Shown: positions 3,302-16,849 of the stretch, in pieces | How positions within the stretch are numbered: the first letter of the stretch is position 1 | Layout of the letters: every line of letters starts with the position of its first letter | The notes under the pieces: model-generated | What the model was told of the DNA's origin: nothing | What the model saw: the letters and a program-made list of their open reading frames with translations, nothing else | The model's database searches: none | From: Gammaproteobacteria bacterium | GTDB taxonomy: Bacteria > Pseudomonadota > Gammaproteobacteria > Ga0077536 | Direction: 5' to 3' | Length of the DNA stretch: 35,950 nucleotides | NCBI GenBank assembly: GCA_016874535.1 | Contig: VGUA01000019.1 | Span: forward strand, 1-35,950 | Translations under genes and position numbers: made by a program

Positions 3302-4478
3302 GGGCTGGCGTGACGTTCCACGAGGCGGGCGGCTGTCTCGCGAGCGCGATGGTCATCCGCGAGCACCGCTTCCAGGGTGTCGGCGGCCTGATGCGGCAAG
3401 GAGGTCAGCGTCTCCTCCACCACGGCCGCGATGTGCGGGAAACGCAGCCGCCCGTCGAGGAAGGCCGCGACGGCGATTTCGTTCGCGGCATTCAGCAGGG
3501 TGGGGGCCGTTCCGCCGGCCGCAATGGCCTCGCGGGCGAGGCGCAGGCTCGGGAAGCGCTCAGGGTCGGGCTCCTCGAATTCGAGCTTGCGCACATCAAA
3601 GAGATTGAGTCGGCCCACCCCGGATTCCATCCGTGACGGCCAAGCCAGTGCATGGGCGATGGGCGTGCGCATGTCCGGGTTGCCGAGCTGGGCGAGTACC
3701 GAGCCGTCGACATATTCGACCATGGAATGGATCACACTTTGAGGATGGATCACGACCTCGATGTTGTCCTGCCCCGTCCCGAACAGCCAGCAGGCCTCGA
3801 TGATCTCCAGACCCTTGTTCATCATCGTGGCGGAATCGACCGAGATCTTGCGACCCATCACCCATTTGGGATGGGCACAGGCCTCGTCCGGGGTCACGGA
3901 CATCAACCCGGCCACGTCCCGCGTGCGGAAGGGCCCACCGGAGGCGGTAAGCAGGATACGGTTCACGCCCACCTGTGGCAGCCCGCGGGAGAAATCCCCC
4001 GGCATGCATTGGAATACCGCATTGTGTTCGCTGTCGATTGGCAGCAGCTCCGCCCCGCTGGCCCGCACGGCGTCCATGAAAAGCTGGCCGGACATCACCA
4101 GCGATTCCTTGTTGGCGAGCATCAGGCGCTTGCCGGCCCGGGCCGCCGCCAGATTGGGCATGAGCCCGGCCGCACCCACGATGCCGGCCATCACGTAGTG
4201 GGTCTGCGGGTGCGCAGCAACCTCGACCAGCCCGGCTTCACCCTCGAGAACCTCGGTGCGAATTCCTTCCGCCCGCAAGGCGGTGCGCAGTTCGCCCGCT
4301 GCGCGAGCATCGACCATCACCGCAAACGGTGGCCGCCACTGCCGGCACTGGGCCAGCAGGCCCTCCACATTGCGGTTGGCCGTGAGCGCCACGACCTCAA
4401 AGCGACCGGGGTCCCTCGCCACCACATCCAGGGTGTTGACGCCGATGGTGCCGGTGGATCCGAGGATGGTGATACCAA

Positions 4479-10333: not shown

Positions 10334-13004
10334 GCCGGCCCGGGCCGAGCCCGCGGTGCCAACGCTGGACCCGGCGGAGCTTGCGGCCCTGCTGGTGCGG
10401 GCGCCGGACGGCAGCCTGCCGCCGATTGCCACGATCAAGCCTCTGCTCCAGCGCTTCCACGAGGCGCAGAAGGCCGCTTTCTTCGGTGGCCTGCCGGCGC
10501 GCGCCATCGTGGCCGCGCGTGCCACCGCGCTGGATCAACTGGTGGGCGCGGTGTGGCGAATGTTCGGACTGGACCGCACGCCCCACGCCCTGCTGGCCGT
10601 GGGCGGCTACGGTCGTGGCGAGCTCCACCCCTACTCCGATGTCGACATCAGCATCCTGACGGCCGGGGACGCCAGTGCAGCGGATCGCCAGGACTGCGAA
10701 GGGTTCGTGCGTCACCTGTGGGACATCGGGCTCGAAGTGGGCAACACCGTGCGCAGTGTCGCCGAGAGTGCGGAGGCTGCGCGGGGCGACATCACCGTGA
10801 TGACGGCGCTGCTGGAGGCCCGCGTGCTGTGCGGCCCACCGGCCCTGTTCGATACCGTGCGTGCGGCCATCGCGCCGGCCGTGATGTGGAACAGCGAGGA
10901 GTTCTTCACGGCCAAGTTCGATGAGCAGGATCACCGGCATGCGCGCTACAACGATGCCTTCCAGCAACTGGAACCCAATCTCAAGGAAAGTCCCGGCGGG
11001 CTGCGCGACATTCAGGTCATTGCGTGGGTTGCCAATCGTCATTTCGACTCGCAGGGCCTCGGCAACCTCGTCGGGCATGGCTTCCTGAGCACCGCGGAAT
11101 TCGCGGCACTCGAGCGCGGCCGCGAGCACCTGTGGCAGATCCGCTGCGCGCTGCATTTCCTGGCCGGGCGGCGTGAAGATCGCCTGCTCTTCGATCACCA
11201 GAAGCGGGTGGCAGAGCTCTTCGGATACACAGACGCCGCCCACAACCGCGCGGTCGAACAGTTCATGAAGGACTTCTACCGCACGGTGCGGGAGTTGAGT
11301 CGCCTGAATGAAATTCTGCTCGGCCTCTTTCAGGAGGCCATCCTGCAGAAGGATCGCGCGGTGCGCACCTCCCCCCTGTCACGCCGCTTTCAGGTGCGCG
11401 GTAATTTCATCGAGGCGGTCAACGAGAACGTCTTCAAACGCACGCCTCCCGCGCTGCTCGAGATTTTTCTTCTGATGCAGAAGAACCCGAGCATCAAGGG
11501 CGTGCGCGCCAGCACCATCCGCCTCATTCGCGAGCACCTCTATCTCATCGACGAGAAATTTCGCAAGGATATCCGGGCCCGCAGCCTGTTCATGGAAATC
11601 ATCCGTGAGCCGCGCCGCGTGGGACACGAGCTGCAGCGCATGCATCGCTATGGCGTGCTCTCGGCCTATCTGCCGGCCTTCGGCCGCATCGAAGGGCTGA
11701 TGCAATTCGATCTGTTTCATGTGTATACCGTGGACGAGCATCTGTTGTTTGTGGTGTTGCAGATGCGTCGCTTCTCCTATCCCATCACCAACGAAGATCA
11801 GTCCTACCTGCTGCGTCAGGCCATCGAGCGGATCCCCAAGCTGGAGCTGCTCTATCTGGCCGGCCTGTTCCATGACATTGCCAAAGGCCGCGGCGGGGAT
11901 CACTCGGACGGCGGTGCCGAGGATGCCGCCGAGTTCTGCAAGCTGCATGGCCTGAGCCAGTACGACACCAATCTGGTGGCATGGCTGGTGAAACACCATC
12001 TGCTGATGAGCAATGTCTCGCAGCGCCAGGACATCAATGATCCGGCGGTCATCCAGGATTTCGCGGCCGTGGTGGGCGACCAGATCCACCTCGATTATCT
12101 CTTCCTGCTCACCATCGCGGATATTCGCGGCACCAATCCGCGGCTCTGGACCAGCTGGAAGCAGTCGCTGCTGTCCGAACTGTATTTGCTCACTTTGCGC
12201 CGCCTGCGCGGTAGTGGCCAGACTGCCGGCGACCGTGCCCAGCGCGTGGAAGACACCCGCGCCGAGGCTCGCCAGCATCTGGACCCCAACCGGTTTCCGG
12301 AGCATGCCGTGGCGCTTTTGTGGGGGACGCTCGGCGAGGAGTACTTCCTGCGTCATCGCCCAGCCGAAATCGCCTGGCACACAGAAACCATCCTTGGCGC
12401 GGACGAGGACGATCTGCCGCTGGTGGCCGTGCGCAATTTCGAACAACGCGGCGGCACCTCCATCTTTATCTATACCCACAACGTGGATTTGCTGTTCGCC
12501 ATCTCCACTGCCGCCCTCGACCGCCTGCGGCTCGACGTACAGGATGCACGCATCATCACCTCCGAAGCGGATTACACGCTCGACACCTACAACGTGCTCG
12601 ATGCGGAAACCCGCAGCCCGGTGGAGGATCCGATGCGCATTCAGGAGATCTGCACCCGCCTGCGCAGCGCAATCCGTGCGGCGGAGATCCCTGCGGCACG
12701 ACAGGGGCCTGCCCAGCGCAAGCTGCAGCATTTCCGTTTTCCGGCGTCGGTGGAATTCAGTGATGACAGCGCGCACGGCCGTACCGTGATGGAAGTGATC
12801 GCCACCGACCGGCCGGGATTCCTCTCGGTGGTGGGTCGCGCCATGCGCGACTCCGGCGTGCGCCTGCACGATGCGCGCATCGCCACCATTGGCGAGCGTG
12901 CGGAAGACTACTTCTACATCACCGATCTCCACGACCAGCCGGTGACGGATGAAGCCACCCGCGCGCGTTTGCAGCAAAGCATCGTCAGCGAACTCGATGC
13001 GTGA
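10311..13004 (+). CDS. glnD: [Protein-PII] uridylyltransferase / uridylyl-removing enzyme GlnD
   Basis: GlnD senses glutamine and adds or removes UMP on the PII signalling proteins, controlling nitrogen assimilation. The 897-residue product has the N-terminal nucleotidyltransferase motif VGGYGRGELHPYSDVD near residue 100. The central HD hydrolase domain has LFHDIAKGRGGDHS near 520. Two C-terminal ACT domains follow, the last including VVGRAMRDSGVRLHDARI. A TTG at 10287 would lengthen it by 8 residues; ATG 10311 is preferred. It follows map, as in E. coli. The stop overlaps the mutH start by GTGA. Confidence 0.95.
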   Translation: MNISTLTEPARAEPAVPTLDPAELAALLVRAPDGSLPPIATIKPLLQRFHEAQKAAFFGGLPARAIVAARATALDQLVGAVWRMFGLDRTPHALLAVGGYGRGELHPYSDVDISILTAGDASAADRQDCEGFVRHLWDIGLEVGNTVRSVAESAEAARGDITVMTALLEARVLCGPPALFDTVRAAIAPAVMWNSEEFFTAKFDEQDHRHARYNDAFQQLEPNLKESPGGLRDIQVIAWVANRHFDSQGLGNLVGHGFLSTAEFAALERGREHLWQIRCALHFLAGRREDRLLFDHQKRVAELFGYTDAAHNRAVEQFMKDFYRTVRELSRLNEILLGLFQEAILQKDRAVRTSPLSRRFQVRGNFIEAVNENVFKRTPPALLEIFLLMQKNPSIKGVRASTIRLIREHLYLIDEKFRKDIRARSLFMEIIREPRRVGHELQRMHRYGVLSAYLPAFGRIEGLMQFDLFHVYTVDEHLLFVVLQMRRFSYPITNEDQSYLLRQAIERIPKLELLYLAGLFHDIAKGRGGDHSDGGAEDAAEFCKLHGLSQYDTNLVAWLVKHHLLMSNVSQRQDINDPAVIQDFAAVVGDQIHLDYLFLLTIADIRGTNPRLWTSWKQSLLSELYLLTLRRLRGSGQTAGDRAQRVEDTRAEARQHLDPNRFPEHAVALLWGTLGEEYFLRHRPAEIAWHTETILGADEDDLPLVAVRNFEQRGGTSIFIYTHNVDLLFAISTAALDRLRLDVQDARIITSEADYTLDTYNVLDAETRSPVEDPMRIQEICTRLRSAIRAAEIPAARQGPAQRKLQHFRFPASVEFSDDSAHGRTVMEVIATDRPGFLSVVGRAMRDSGVRLHDARIATIGERAEDYFYITDLHDQPVTDEATRARLQQSIVSELDA

Positions 13005-13663
13005 CCCCGCCCCCTGCGACTGAGGCTGAACTGCTGGAGCGTGCCCATGCGCTCGCCGGTCTGCGCCTTGGGGAACTCGCAGCCACTGCCGGTTTGCCCG
13101 TACCCCCCTCGCCCCGTCAGGGCAAAGGCTGGATGGGACAACTGCTCGAAATCGTGTTGGGAGCCGACGCTGGCAACCTGCCGGAGCCGGACTTCCGCGC
13201 GCTCGGCATCGAGTTGAAGACCATTCCCGTCGATGTAGCAGGCCAGCCGAGGGAATCCACCTACGTGTGCCGCGCGCCATCGCGACCTGAGCCTTCTAGC
13301 CGCTGGGAGGAGTCCGTGGTACGCCGGAAACTCGTCCGCGTGCTCTGGTTGCCCATCGAAGCGGCAAGCCTGGCGCCACTGCCAGCGCGGCGTATCGGCT
13401 GGGCGCGGCTGTGGAGCCCCGGCCCAGAGGAAGAAGCTCTGCTCCGGGCCGATTGGGAGGAATTGACGTCACTGCTGGTGCTGGGCCGGCAGGAAGAAAT
13501 CAGCGCGCGCCTCGGCGCCGTGATGCAGCTGCGGCCCAAGGCGGCGGACGCTTCGGTGACTGCGCCAGCATTTGATGCCAGCGGTGAGCCGGCCACCCGC
13601 GCACCTCTCGCCTGGTATCTACGGGCGGCTTTTACCGGCAGGATTCTCGCCGAGTCTGATTGA
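13001..13663 (+). CDS. mutH: DNA mismatch repair endonuclease MutH
   Basis: MutH nicks the unmethylated strand at hemimethylated GATC sites when activated by MutS and MutL. The 220-residue product aligns by eye with E. coli MutH (229 residues). It has LGELAATAGLPVP, GKGWMGQLLEIVLGA, then DFRALGIELKTIPVD. The catalytic set is Glu50, Asp64, Glu71 and Lys73, with the same spacing as E56, D70, E77 and K79 in E. coli. KLVRVLW and the C-terminal RPKAAD are also conserved. The start is GTG in a GTGA overlap with glnD, implying coupled translation. Its presence implies Dam-directed mismatch repair. It ends 13 bp before the convergent hydrolase frame. Confidence 0.93.
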   Translation: MTPPPATEAELLERAHALAGLRLGELAATAGLPVPPSPRQGKGWMGQLLEIVLGADAGNLPEPDFRALGIELKTIPVDVAGQPRESTYVCRAPSRPEPSSRWEESVVRRKLVRVLWLPIEAASLAPLPARRIGWARLWSPGPEEEALLRADWEELTSLLVLGRQEEISARLGAVMQLRPKAADASVTAPAFDASGEPATRAPLAWYLRAAFTGRILAESD

Positions 13664-13676
13664 TCAGCCCAAGCAT

Positions 13677-14729
13677 TCAATCTTCCCCACGCAAGCGGTA
13701 GAGCGTGCCCACCACACTGGGCGCATAGCGTCGCGGCGCAAATGCGTTGGCAAGAGACTGCTTGGCTCGCCACCCCGTGCAGTGGCCCGGCGCCACCAGG
13801 CGCGGATCCACCCGCTCCAACAGATCAGTCACCGTTTAGGGAATGCGCTCCTCCATCATCCGGCTAGCCAGGTGGTAGCCCCCAAGCACCAGGTCGACTG
13901 CCTCAGCAGGGAAACAGGCCTTGGCGTCCAGGCACGCATTCACGATACCGGCATGCGAACAGGCCGAGAAAACACTCACGCCGCGCCCGCGCACTTTTGC
14001 CACCAGATAACGCTCGTCCATGATTAGGGGGTCAGCCTCCAGCACATCGCCACGGAAGGTGTGATGCCCGGCAAGCCCGGTTTCATAGGAGGTTACCCGG
14101 GCAATGGCGCCGCTCCCGAAGAAGAAGCCATCGGACAGAAGATGGGCTTCTGAGGCGCGCAGAACCCGCCCCCCTGCTGTCTCCATCGCCGCAAAGCTCG
14201 GCTCTTCGGGCAGCAACAACAGCGTACCGTCGGGCGCCATCAGTCCGCGCTGATCGGGTCGATCGGGATGCACATCCACCACCAGTGGTGCAGTGTGGCC
14301 ACGCTTGGCACGTGCCTCGGTGATCGCCGCAATGACTTCAGGAAAGCCGCCACTGTGGTCAAAATGCCAGTGGGAAAGAAACAAGGCCTCGATCGACGCC
14401 AGGTCCACGTCCAGTCGACGCGCGTTGTCGAGCCATAGCTCAGGATAAGGCCCCACATCGAAGAGCACGCTGTGTTTCTCGTTGCCCACATGCCCGGTCA
14501 GCAGGACGGATAACCCGTGGCACGCACAGCACAGTTGGTCCATCACCACCTTGCACGCGTGCCCTTCGTACACTCGCGCAGGCGGCGTACGGGCCGCGAG
14601 ATGCACCACCTCCGGCACTTGCGGACTGCCCTCCGCGATACTTGAGAGGGTGTCTGTTTCGTTGTCGACCACCACCAGCACGTCGAGGGCGTCGAGCATT
14701 TTCAATTGCTGTCCAATCTCGCGAGACAT
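13677..14729 (-). pseudogene. MBL-fold metallohydrolase (COG1237-like) interrupted by in-frame TAA
   Basis: This is a metal-dependent hydrolase of the metallo-beta-lactamase superfamily, resembling the COG1237 group; the substrate is unknown. The start at 14729 has a GAGGAAAA ribosome-binding site. The first 297 codons contain the metal motif HWHFDHSGG (His120, His122, Asp124, His125), a later SACSHAG His and LGGYHLASRMMEERIP. Then TAA (13838-13836) stops the frame. The same frame continues for 52 more sense codons without any shift, encoding a family-like C-terminus with APGHCTGWRAKQSLANAF, ending at TGA 13679-13677. The HCTG histidine is normally conserved, so the 297-residue product is probably inactive unless the stop is read through or is a sequencing error. 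Confidence 0.75.
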
Positions 14730-14821
14730 CGGTTTTCCTCACTGCGAACCTGTGCCCGGAGATGATACGGTTACGACCTGTACCCGCAAGGCGCGGGCAA
14801 TTTCATGCGAGGAACAGCGCC

Positions 14822-15364
14822 ATGTCGAAAACATCCGTCATCAAGAAGCTGCTGGCGACCGCTGCGGCCATCGCGACCCTCACCGGCTGCGCCGGGCCCT
14901 CCCCTCAGGATTACGCGGCAGCCACCCCCACGCTCGATCTCGCGCGCTACTTCAACGGGCAGGTGGAAGCCTGGGGCATGGTGCAGGAGCGCTCCGGCAA
15001 GGTGATCCGGCGCATGAACGTGAAGATGGACTGCCACTGGGAAGGCGACACCGGCACCCTGGATGAACACTTCACCTATGACGATGGCAGTACGGAGCGG
15101 CGGGTGTGGACGATACGCAAGGAGGGCAATGCCTACACCGGCACCGCGGCCGACGTGGTGGGCGAAGCCAAGGGTTCAGCTGCCGGTAATGCGCTCAACT
15201 GGCGCTACGTGCTCGCCTACAAGGGAGAGGACGGCGTGGTGAAGCTCGACATGGATGACTGGATGTGGCTCATCGACGAGCGCACCTTGGTCAACAAGAC
15301 CCGCTTCAGCAAGTTCGGTATCGGCTTTGGCGAGGTGACCCTCTTCTTCCGCAAGGCGGAGTGA
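14822..15364 (+). CDS. DUF3833-type lipoprotein
   Basis: A predicted lipoprotein of 180 residues. Lys residues and a hydrophobic stretch lead to the lipobox LTGC, with the lipidated Cys at residue 23. The mature part has FNGQVEAWGMVQERSGKV, a DDGSTERR segment, and ends in KTRFSKFGIGFGEVTLFF. This matches what I know of the DUF3833 family, whose biochemical role is not established. The start has a GAGGAA site 8-9 nt upstream. The upstream frame to 14642 is unlikely to be translated. The last 144 bp of this gene recur in part at 15861-15924 and 16691-16834, on either side of higBA (see repeats). Confidence 0.88.
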   Translation: MSKTSVIKKLLATAAAIATLTGCAGPSPQDYAAATPTLDLARYFNGQVEAWGMVQERSGKVIRRMNVKMDCHWEGDTGTLDEHFTYDDGSTERRVWTIRKEGNAYTGTAADVVGEAKGSAAGNALNWRYVLAYKGEDGVVKLDMDDWMWLIDERTLVNKTRFSKFGIGFGEVTLFFRKAE

Positions 15365-15461
15365 GAGGTCGGGGGCAGCCCCACTCTTGCGGGGTGGGCA
15401 AGAGCGGCAGCCCGAGCTCGCCCTCCCGGAATCACTTCTGCGGGATGAGGCGAACTTGCAG
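15301..15461 (+). repeat. Direct repeat unit A1 (lipoprotein tail + spacer + xre tail)
   Basis: This 161-bp segment recurs at 15861-16022. It covers the last 64 bp of the lipoprotein gene, the whole spacer, and the last 30 bp of the convergent xre gene. The two copies differ at one base within the coding tail. A few differences and a one-base indel lie just after the stop. They are then identical for about 73 bp, with one substitution shortly before the end. The spacer contains the hairpin CTCTTG-N9-CAAGAG (15384-15404), possibly a terminator between the convergent genes although no T-run follows. Confidence 0.9.
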
Positions 15462-15743
15462 GTCGCAGCCTACCGCCTGAGCATAACGGCGCAGTGTCCC
15501 CAGAGAGGGACTGTGTTTACCCGCCCCCTCCAGCCGCGAGACCGCACTCTTGGTCGTGCCCATGCGCTCTGCCACGGCATCCTGCGTGAGACCCGCGCGG
15601 GCGCGTGCTTTCAAGAGCTGGTCAATCACCTGGCATTCCAGCTCCAAGGCATCGTAAGCCTCATCAAAGCCTTTCCTGGTACGAGCCTTCTCCAGAAAGG
15701 CCTTATGGTCGTGACGCACGGGAGAATGTTTCAAATCAGACAT
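15432..15743 (-). CDS. Xre-family antitoxin-like regulator (orphan)
   Basis: A 103-residue protein with a helix-turn-helix of the Xre/Cro type at about residues 52-73 (LTQDAVAERMGTTKSAVSRL). The C-terminus is LQVRLIPQK. The N-terminal half (EKARTRKGFDEAYDALELE) resembles antitoxins paired with RelE/Gp49-like toxins. In such modules the toxin lies just upstream. Here only a 20-codon frame with a possible toxin N-terminus remains, overlapping the ATG. It is convergent with the lipoprotein gene and its last codons lie in repeat A1. It probably represses its own promoter through the palindrome at 15804-15821. The function as an orphan is unknown. Confidence 0.82.
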   Translation of the reverse strand: MSDLKHSPVRHDHKAFLEKARTRKGFDEAYDALELECQVIDQLLKARARAGLTQDAVAERMGTTKSAVSRLEGAGKHSPSLGTLRRYAQAVGCDLQVRLIPQK

Positions 15744-15795
15744 GAACCAGCCGTCTCGGGAGCGGCGCGTGGAAGTATTGGATGTCGTAAGCCAC
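15736..15795 (-). pseudogene. Probable remnant of RelE/Gp49-like toxin
   Basis: A GTG-initiated frame of 19 codons plus stop (VAYDIQYFHAPLPRRLVHV) sits where the toxin of this antitoxin family belongs. Its stop overlaps the antitoxin start. The first eight or so residues look like the N-terminus of RelE/ParE-type Gp49-like toxins. The rest of a roughly 100-residue toxin is missing, which suggests an internal deletion. The predicted promoter would start transcription at or beside the GTG. The match is short, so the assignment is tentative. Confidence 0.4.
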
Positions 15796-15801
15796 GCCTG
15801 A

Positions 15802-15830
15802 AGGTTAGCGTTTCTGCTAACTCAGAGCAA
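15802..15830 (-). promoter_or_regulatory. Predicted autoregulated promoter of the xre module
   Basis: On the minus strand TTGCTC (15830-15825) and TAACCT (15807-15802) are separated by 17 bp. A perfect palindrome GTTAGC-N6-GCTAAC (15804-15821) lies between and over the -10 box. This is the usual place for an Xre antitoxin operator. The promoter boxes are weak matches; the palindrome is clear. Confidence 0.5.
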
Positions 15831-15860
15831 GCGCCTGGAGGCCAGCCGTTTTTTTCCAGA

Positions 15861-16022
15861 CCGCTTCAGCAAGTTCGGTATCGGCTTTGGCGAGGTCACC
15901 CTCTTCTTCCGCAAGGCGGAGTGAAAGGTCGGGGGGCGGGCCTACTCTTGCGGGGTGGGCAAGAGCGGCAGCCCGAGCTCGCCCTCCCGGAATCACTTCT
16001 GCGGGATGAGGCGAACCTGCAG
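15861..16022 (+). repeat. Direct repeat unit A2 (lipoprotein tail + spacer + xre tail relic)
   Basis: Second copy of the 15301-15461 unit. It begins abruptly after a T-run, inside the lipoprotein reading frame (RFSKFGIGFGEVTLFF). It keeps the stop and the hairpin CTCTTG-N9-CAAGAG (15945-15965), and ends with antisense codons for LQVRLIPQK, the end of an xre gene whose remainder is absent. Directly after it comes the 3' end of higA. The unit is therefore a relic of a second lipoprotein-xre junction. It has one substitution against A1 in the 64 coding bases. Confidence 0.88.
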
Positions 16023-16036
16023 CAGCCCACTACCCG

Positions 16037-16357
16037 TCAAGCAGCATCAAACCTCACCGACTTGATGACGGACAGTGCTTTCGTGGCTTTCGCCACTTGC
16101 CGTGCCTGCCAAAGGTCGTAGGCAGCCTGCTGGGCCAGCCACACTTCGGCAGCGCCGCCGTGGTCCCGGCCCAACCAGCGTTCGATGCGCAGCGCCATGG
16201 CCGGGCTGATGGCCGCGCGCCCATTGAGCACCTTGGACAATGTGGTTCGGTCGACGCCCAGCTGGGCGGCTGCCTCACTCACCTGCAGACTCAGGGCCGG
16301 CAGGATATCGTCCCTGAGGGTGAGGCCAGGATGAGGGGGATTGAACATCGAATTCAT
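16037..16357 (-). CDS. higA: HigA-family antitoxin
   Basis: The antitoxin of a type II HigBA module. It neutralises the HigB mRNA interferase and represses the operon. I use ATG 16357, giving 106 residues starting MNSMFNPPHPG, which is the HigA-family N-terminus. It has a TGAGG ribosome-binding site 4-5 nt upstream. A GTG at 16363 is also possible. The helix-turn-helix spans VSEAAAQLGVDRTTLSKVLNGRAAIS in two contiguous helical segments (about residues 27-52). The toxin gene precedes it by 20 nt, the typical toxin-first HigBA order. The pair lies antisense to the lipoprotein gene between two tail repeats, which points to acquired DNA. Confidence 0.92.
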   Translation of the reverse strand: MNSMFNPPHPGLTLRDDILPALSLQVSEAAAQLGVDRTTLSKVLNGRAAISPAMALRIERWLGRDHGGAAEVWLAQQAAYDLWQARQVAKATKALSVIKSVRFDAA

Positions 16358-16377
16358 GAGCACCTCAGTGGTAATCC

Positions 16378-16656
16378 TCAGTGATAGTCTTTGTAGTCGA
16401 CCAAGATGGCATCGCCGTTTTCAAACGCGAAGGTGAGGCGCCAGTTCCCGTTTACGCTGACGGCCCAGTGGTCGGCCAGGCCGCCCTTGAGGGAGTGCCA
16501 TCCCCAACCGGGTCGGTTCATGTCTTCAGGTCGCGTGGCGACATCCAGCGCAGATAGTTGCCGAGCGAGGCGTGGGGCATGTTTCGGTTTGATCCCCGCC
16601 CGTGAGCCGGTCCGAAAAAATCGCTCGATGCCCTTGTGCCGGAAGCTTCGAATCAT
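16378..16656 (-). CDS. higB: HigB-family toxin (RelE superfamily)
   Basis: The toxin of the HigBA module, expected to cleave mRNA on the ribosome. The open frame extends upstream to 16824 through the repeated lipoprotein tail, but ATG 16656 gives the family N-terminus MIRSFRHKGIERFFRTGS and 92 residues. Other conserved parts are ARLARQLSALDVATRPEDM, LKGGLADHWAVSVNGNWRL and the C-terminal ILVDYKDYH. It looks intact. Almost no leader lies between the predicted promoter and the ATG. The stop is followed after 20 nt by higA. Confidence 0.92.
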   Translation of the reverse strand: MIRSFRHKGIERFFRTGSRAGIKPKHAPRLARQLSALDVATRPEDMNRPGWGWHSLKGGLADHWAVSVNGNWRLTFAFENGDAILVDYKDYH

Positions 16657-16663
16657 GAGACTC

Positions 16664-16692
16664 AATGTAGCGCGTGGCGCTACACGCCGCAA
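16664..16692 (-). promoter_or_regulatory. Predicted higBA promoter and HigA operator
   Basis: A perfect inverted repeat TGTAGCGC-N3-GCGCTACA (16666-16684) lies just upstream of higB. It overlaps a predicted minus-strand promoter: TTGCGG (16692-16687), 17-bp spacer, TACATT (16669-16664). HigA-type antitoxins bind such palindromes to repress their operon. The predicted transcription start (about 16657) is next to the higB ATG, so the message may be leaderless. The -35 box straddles the start of the lipoprotein-tail repeat. Confidence 0.6.
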
Positions 16693-16849
16693 GGGCGAGG
16701 ACGGGGTGGTGAAGCTCGACATGGATGACTGGATGTGGCTCATCGACGAGCGCACCTTGGTCAACAAGACCCGCTTCAGCAAAGTCGGTATCGGCTTTGG
16801 CGAGGTCACCCTCTTCTTCCGCAAGGCGGAGTGAAGAGGTCGAGGGCAG
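16691..16849 (+). repeat. Third copy of the lipoprotein gene 3' end
   Basis: This segment matches 15221-15378: the last 144 bp of the lipoprotein gene (KGEDGVVKLDMDD to the stop), plus about 14 bp beyond the stop with a one-base indel. There are five substitutions in 144 bp. Four are synonymous third-position changes (GGA/GGC, GGC/GGG, AAG/AAA, GTG/GTC) and one changes Phe to Val (TTC/GTC). It has no start codon of its own. It ends the toxin-antitoxin array; unrelated sequence follows. Confidence 0.92.

Follow-up and report, generated by a model that had tools for sequence, protein, structure and literature searches.

A premature in-frame TAA ahead of the HCTG motif of a gammaproteobacterial MBL-fold hydrolase gene, probably a recent nonsense mutation

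The histidine of the final motif is a metal ligand in other enzymes of the metallo-β-lactamase (MBL) fold. The gene described here resembles COG1237, which we take to be a group of MBL-fold metal-dependent hydrolases. Its closest solved relatives are 2p4z, 3h3e (Tm1679), and 7dck (tw9814), COG1237-like proteins with which it has in common the fold and four motifs: HxHxDH-like, C(S/A)H, GGxHL, and HC(T/S)G. Foldseek matched the hydrolase to these three structures with E values of 7.3e-21 to 8.3e-16 at an identity of about 20%, and its sequence alignment to 2p4z and 3h3e extends through the HCTG motif. The assignment to the MBL fold comes from Pfam PF00753, from the invariance of H120, H122, D124, and H125, and from the best PDB matches, which are MBL-fold proteins. 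No NCBIfam model matched at or above its cut-off, and no publication on this hydrolase gene appeared among the literature search results. Unlike the products of the solved relatives, the translated product of this gene ends ahead of HCTG, which is encoded beyond an in-frame TAA.

The gene lies in a 35,950-nucleotide stretch of DNA (the window; contig VGUA01000019.1) from a gammaproteobacterial draft genome. The features of the locus are as follows.

13836..14729, minus strand: MBL-fold hydrolase gene, 5' portion, which opens with ATG, encodes 297 aa, and ends in the in-frame TAA (match to Pfam PF00753 Lactamase_B, E 7.1e-09)
13836..13838, minus strand: in-frame TAA at codon 298, where the 53 relatives scored all have a sense codon
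13677..13835, minus strand: 52 conserved sense codons and a TGA 3' of the TAA, encoding the invariant PGHCTGWRAK (from the frame, the relatives, and the alignment)
13677..13832, minus strand: ORF of 51 aa from a GTG directly 3' of the TAA, a candidate restart product (open frame only)
13001..13663, plus strand: mutH, the convergent neighbour, intact (Pfam PF02976)

The hydrolase gene starts at an ATG (14729-14727) and meets the TAA (13838-13836) in frame after 297 codons. Beyond it the frame runs on for 52 sense codons (13835-13680) to a TGA (13679-13677), which lies 13 bp from the end of the convergent mutH (13663). A first-pass annotation had described the TAA, the 52 codons, and the distance to mutH in the same terms, and re-reading the frame bore this out. 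It had also remarked that no frameshift was visible. This holds as well: the gene aligned over 1053 bases with zero gaps on either side to its copy in the closest relative, a genome of the same genus (G003; 85% amino acid identity). No second lesion follows the TAA, as there is no gap against G003 and the tail sequence is still recognisable. The reading frame after the TAA is far from chance, because it is common to the relatives, codon 298 is a sense codon in all of those scored, and PGHCTGWRAK is invariant in 36 of 36 aligned proteins. These 36 comprise 35 relatives' loci and the window's own, with frame-broken and partial loci left out.

What do relatives carry at codon 298? The site is variable, with Ala in 22 relatives, Asp in 15, Pro in 8, Glu in 4, Gln in 2, and Ser and His in 1 each. 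The scored set was 53 of the 55 loci supplied; the two skipped were minus-strand loci, both of which had no internal stop in a separate genome search. Lys, which the first-pass annotation had proposed as the original residue (AAA to TAA), occurs at this codon in 0 of 53. Orthologs that naturally end at the TAA position, which it had named as refuting evidence, were looked for and likewise number 0 of 53. Among 36 genomes of the family, a close copy was present in 14 including this one (66-100% identity, two partial), only a distant match in 2, and no match at E 0.001 in 20. A single internal stop was seen among these copies, the TAA in this genome. A named-genome collection yielded 54 loci, one of which (L093) is a short piece without codon 298 and was left out of scoring. 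Three of the 55 relatives' loci (L068, L089, and L092) are frame-broken; in L068, from another MAG, the hydrolase frame shifts within the GHCTG codons (3850-4030).

The TAA removes a sizeable part of the predicted fold. The full frame, with the stop entered as a placeholder, was predicted with a mean pLDDT of 90.2, and the TAA falls inside a predicted helix (296-307). The elements lost after it are a strand (311-315), GHCTG (315-319), a helix (320-330), and the last strand (343-347). In all, 53 residues are lost through the TAA, including the invariant PGHCTGWRAK. Pfam Lactamase_B is matched by both the short product and the read-through product. By analogy with the MBL superfamily, the histidine of HCTG is presumably a metal ligand in this hydrolase too. 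The 297-aa product is probably inactive, because the last strand-helix-strand and GHCTG with this putative ligand are missing; going by the predicted fold and the analogy, normal folding or metal binding would be unlikely.

The 297-aa product could instead be a stable functional protein in shortened form, or one half of a split protein together with the 51-aa product of a restart at the GTG (13832-13830). The GTG stands 3 bases after the TAA, a purine-rich GGAGGAG ends 15 bases before it, and the downstream ORF is open. However, the purine run encodes a conserved ME(E/Q)R region and is not special to this genome, the break falls within the predicted helix, and no relative among the 53 ends or splits at this codon. 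We consider a shortened or split protein very unlikely.

The constraint on the tail bears on the age of the stop. At columns conserved in at least 95% of the proteins, the hydrolase deviates at 1 of 92 before the stop (G289S) and at 0 of 20 after it; G289S says little, as most relatives likewise deviate at 0 to 2 such columns. Differences from G003 at codon positions 1, 2, and 3 number 39, 20, and 159 in the 297 codons before the stop, and 5, 4, and 21 in 49 codons after it. In other words, differences at positions 1 and 2 amount to 0.099 per site before the stop and 0.092 after it. Because constraint after the stop equals constraint before it, the stop appears young and the tail not yet decayed. 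A simple Poisson model puts the share of this lineage's branch over which the tail was unconstrained at about 20-25% at most; the probability of seeing so few tail changes is 0.07 at a fraction of 0.20 and 0.037 at 0.25.

An undecayed tail would likewise be seen if the product were still being made, and conservation after the stop is equally expected if UAA is read through, in a programmed way or frequently, to give the full-length enzyme. Such readthrough, at a useful rate and in this species only, would yield a little full-length hydrolase and keep the tail under selection. Several results argue against it. The stop is kept in none of the 53 relatives. UAA behaves as an ordinary terminator, since for 12 of 13 genes ending in TAA in this genome the G003 counterpart stops no more than 10 codons away. 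Both prfA and prfB scored above cut-offs and are uninterrupted. No suppressor tRNA for UAA was found, the anticodon TTA being present in 0 of the 40 tRNA genes detected. The RNA shows no notable structure at the stop or beyond it: a 101-nt stretch with the stop and the sequence following it folded with z -0.54, and 55 of 200 shuffles were at least as good. Known programmed stop-codon readthrough likewise involves conserved coding sequence beyond an in-frame stop, but here the stop is unconserved in relatives, is a UAA, and has neither notable RNA structure nor a suppressor tRNA. Readthrough, which the first-pass annotation had offered as one of its options, is thus highly improbable. Reassignment of UAA was considered separately and rejected, as the 135 gene pairs compared contain no further internal TAA flanked by conserved coding sequence and TAA-ending genes end alike in G003 (12 of 13).

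The genome carries one copy of the hydrolase, and a search of it found no second intact copy. The gene is dispensable in the family, as 22 of the 36 genomes, including 3 of 6 of the genus, had no match (20) or a distant match only (2). The neighbourhood of mutH is common to this genome and G003. Near mutH in the four other genomes of the genus, there was no good hydrolase match; the gene has therefore moved or been lost in close relatives, which fits dispensability. G003, besides its intact copy, has a second piece of the hydrolase gene, which covers 59 N-terminal residues with 73% identity to the query and sits right at a contig end (C108, 26459-26635).

The region of the window from 14642 to 16845 is repetitive. 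A DUF3833 gene (14642-15364) has its 3' end repeated at 15861-15935 and 16690-16834 with 87-97% identity, and a second repeat of 91 bp occurs at 15371-15461 and 15932-16022. Around and between the copies of the DUF3833 end lie two HTH genes (15432-15743 and 16037-16363, both minus strand) and a HigB-like toxin gene (16378-16824, minus strand), which as listed overlaps the last copy with its 5' part. The arrangement resembles toxin-antitoxin cassettes in which the end of the target gene has been copied.

Is the TAA present in the organism at all? The main rival is an assembly or consensus error, in which case the organism has a sense codon and an intact gene. With 189 contigs the assembly is still a draft, and the undiminished constraint after the stop is what an error would leave. 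According to one published survey, assembly errors account for many of the apparent pseudogenes that contain internal stops (PMC11017572). Moreover, frame breaks are not rare in these records, as 3 of 55 relatives' loci have one, including the break within the GHCTG codons of L068. Against an error stand a completeness of 97.61 with contamination of 0.15, and the absence of other such stops in the genes compared. In a homology scan, 1.19 Mb of this genome was compared with 135 G003 genes that show a coding signature (46,371 codons), and a stop was taken as flanked by conserved coding when amino acid identity was at least 80% on both sides over about 50 codons with third-position-dominated differences. 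A first scan had 16 of 146 G003 genes meeting a stop; the stricter one gave 13 stops in 135 pairs, including the hydrolase TAA, the only one with conserved coding both before and after it. In the remaining 12 cases the stop falls in the first 40% of the query, and conservation before it is weak or non-coding or spans too few codons to judge; these are read as over-extended 5' ends. In the reverse direction, 139 pairs contained 22 stops, many of which fell in antisense frames. The homology scan replaced an ab initio search for lone stops separating coding-like segments, whose 1110 candidates among 1888 ORFs were too noisy because of antisense frames and frames of the next gene. Since the hydrolase TAA is the only such stop in the 135 pairs, errors are not widespread in the assembly, although this does not decide a single base. 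An error at this base is possible, at a clearly lower likelihood than a mutation.

The evidence as a whole points to a recent nonsense mutation as the probable explanation, in a single-copy and dispensable gene for an MBL-fold metal-dependent hydrolase. The relatives scored all lack the stop, the reading frame around it is intact, and the sequence is as constrained after it as before it. The mutation would have created the TAA at codon 298, where translation would terminate, and the product, deprived of the final strand-helix-strand and the invariant GHCTG, would probably be inactive. We infer that the TAA base is real in the organism, although identical data fit a single consensus error. Among the options raised in the first-pass annotation, a recent nonsense mutation is favoured, sequence error stays in contention, and readthrough finds no support in the tests made. 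Annotations should show an interrupted gene here and not a 297-aa enzyme. Otherwise the locus matters little: it exemplifies either the very recent loss of a gene or an error in assembly that mimics such a loss. Nonsense-mutation pseudogenes of bacteria show the same pattern, a single premature stop in a conserved frame in one genome with intact relatives. Nothing sets this locus apart from them, and judged by its sequence it would be a young, undecayed case.
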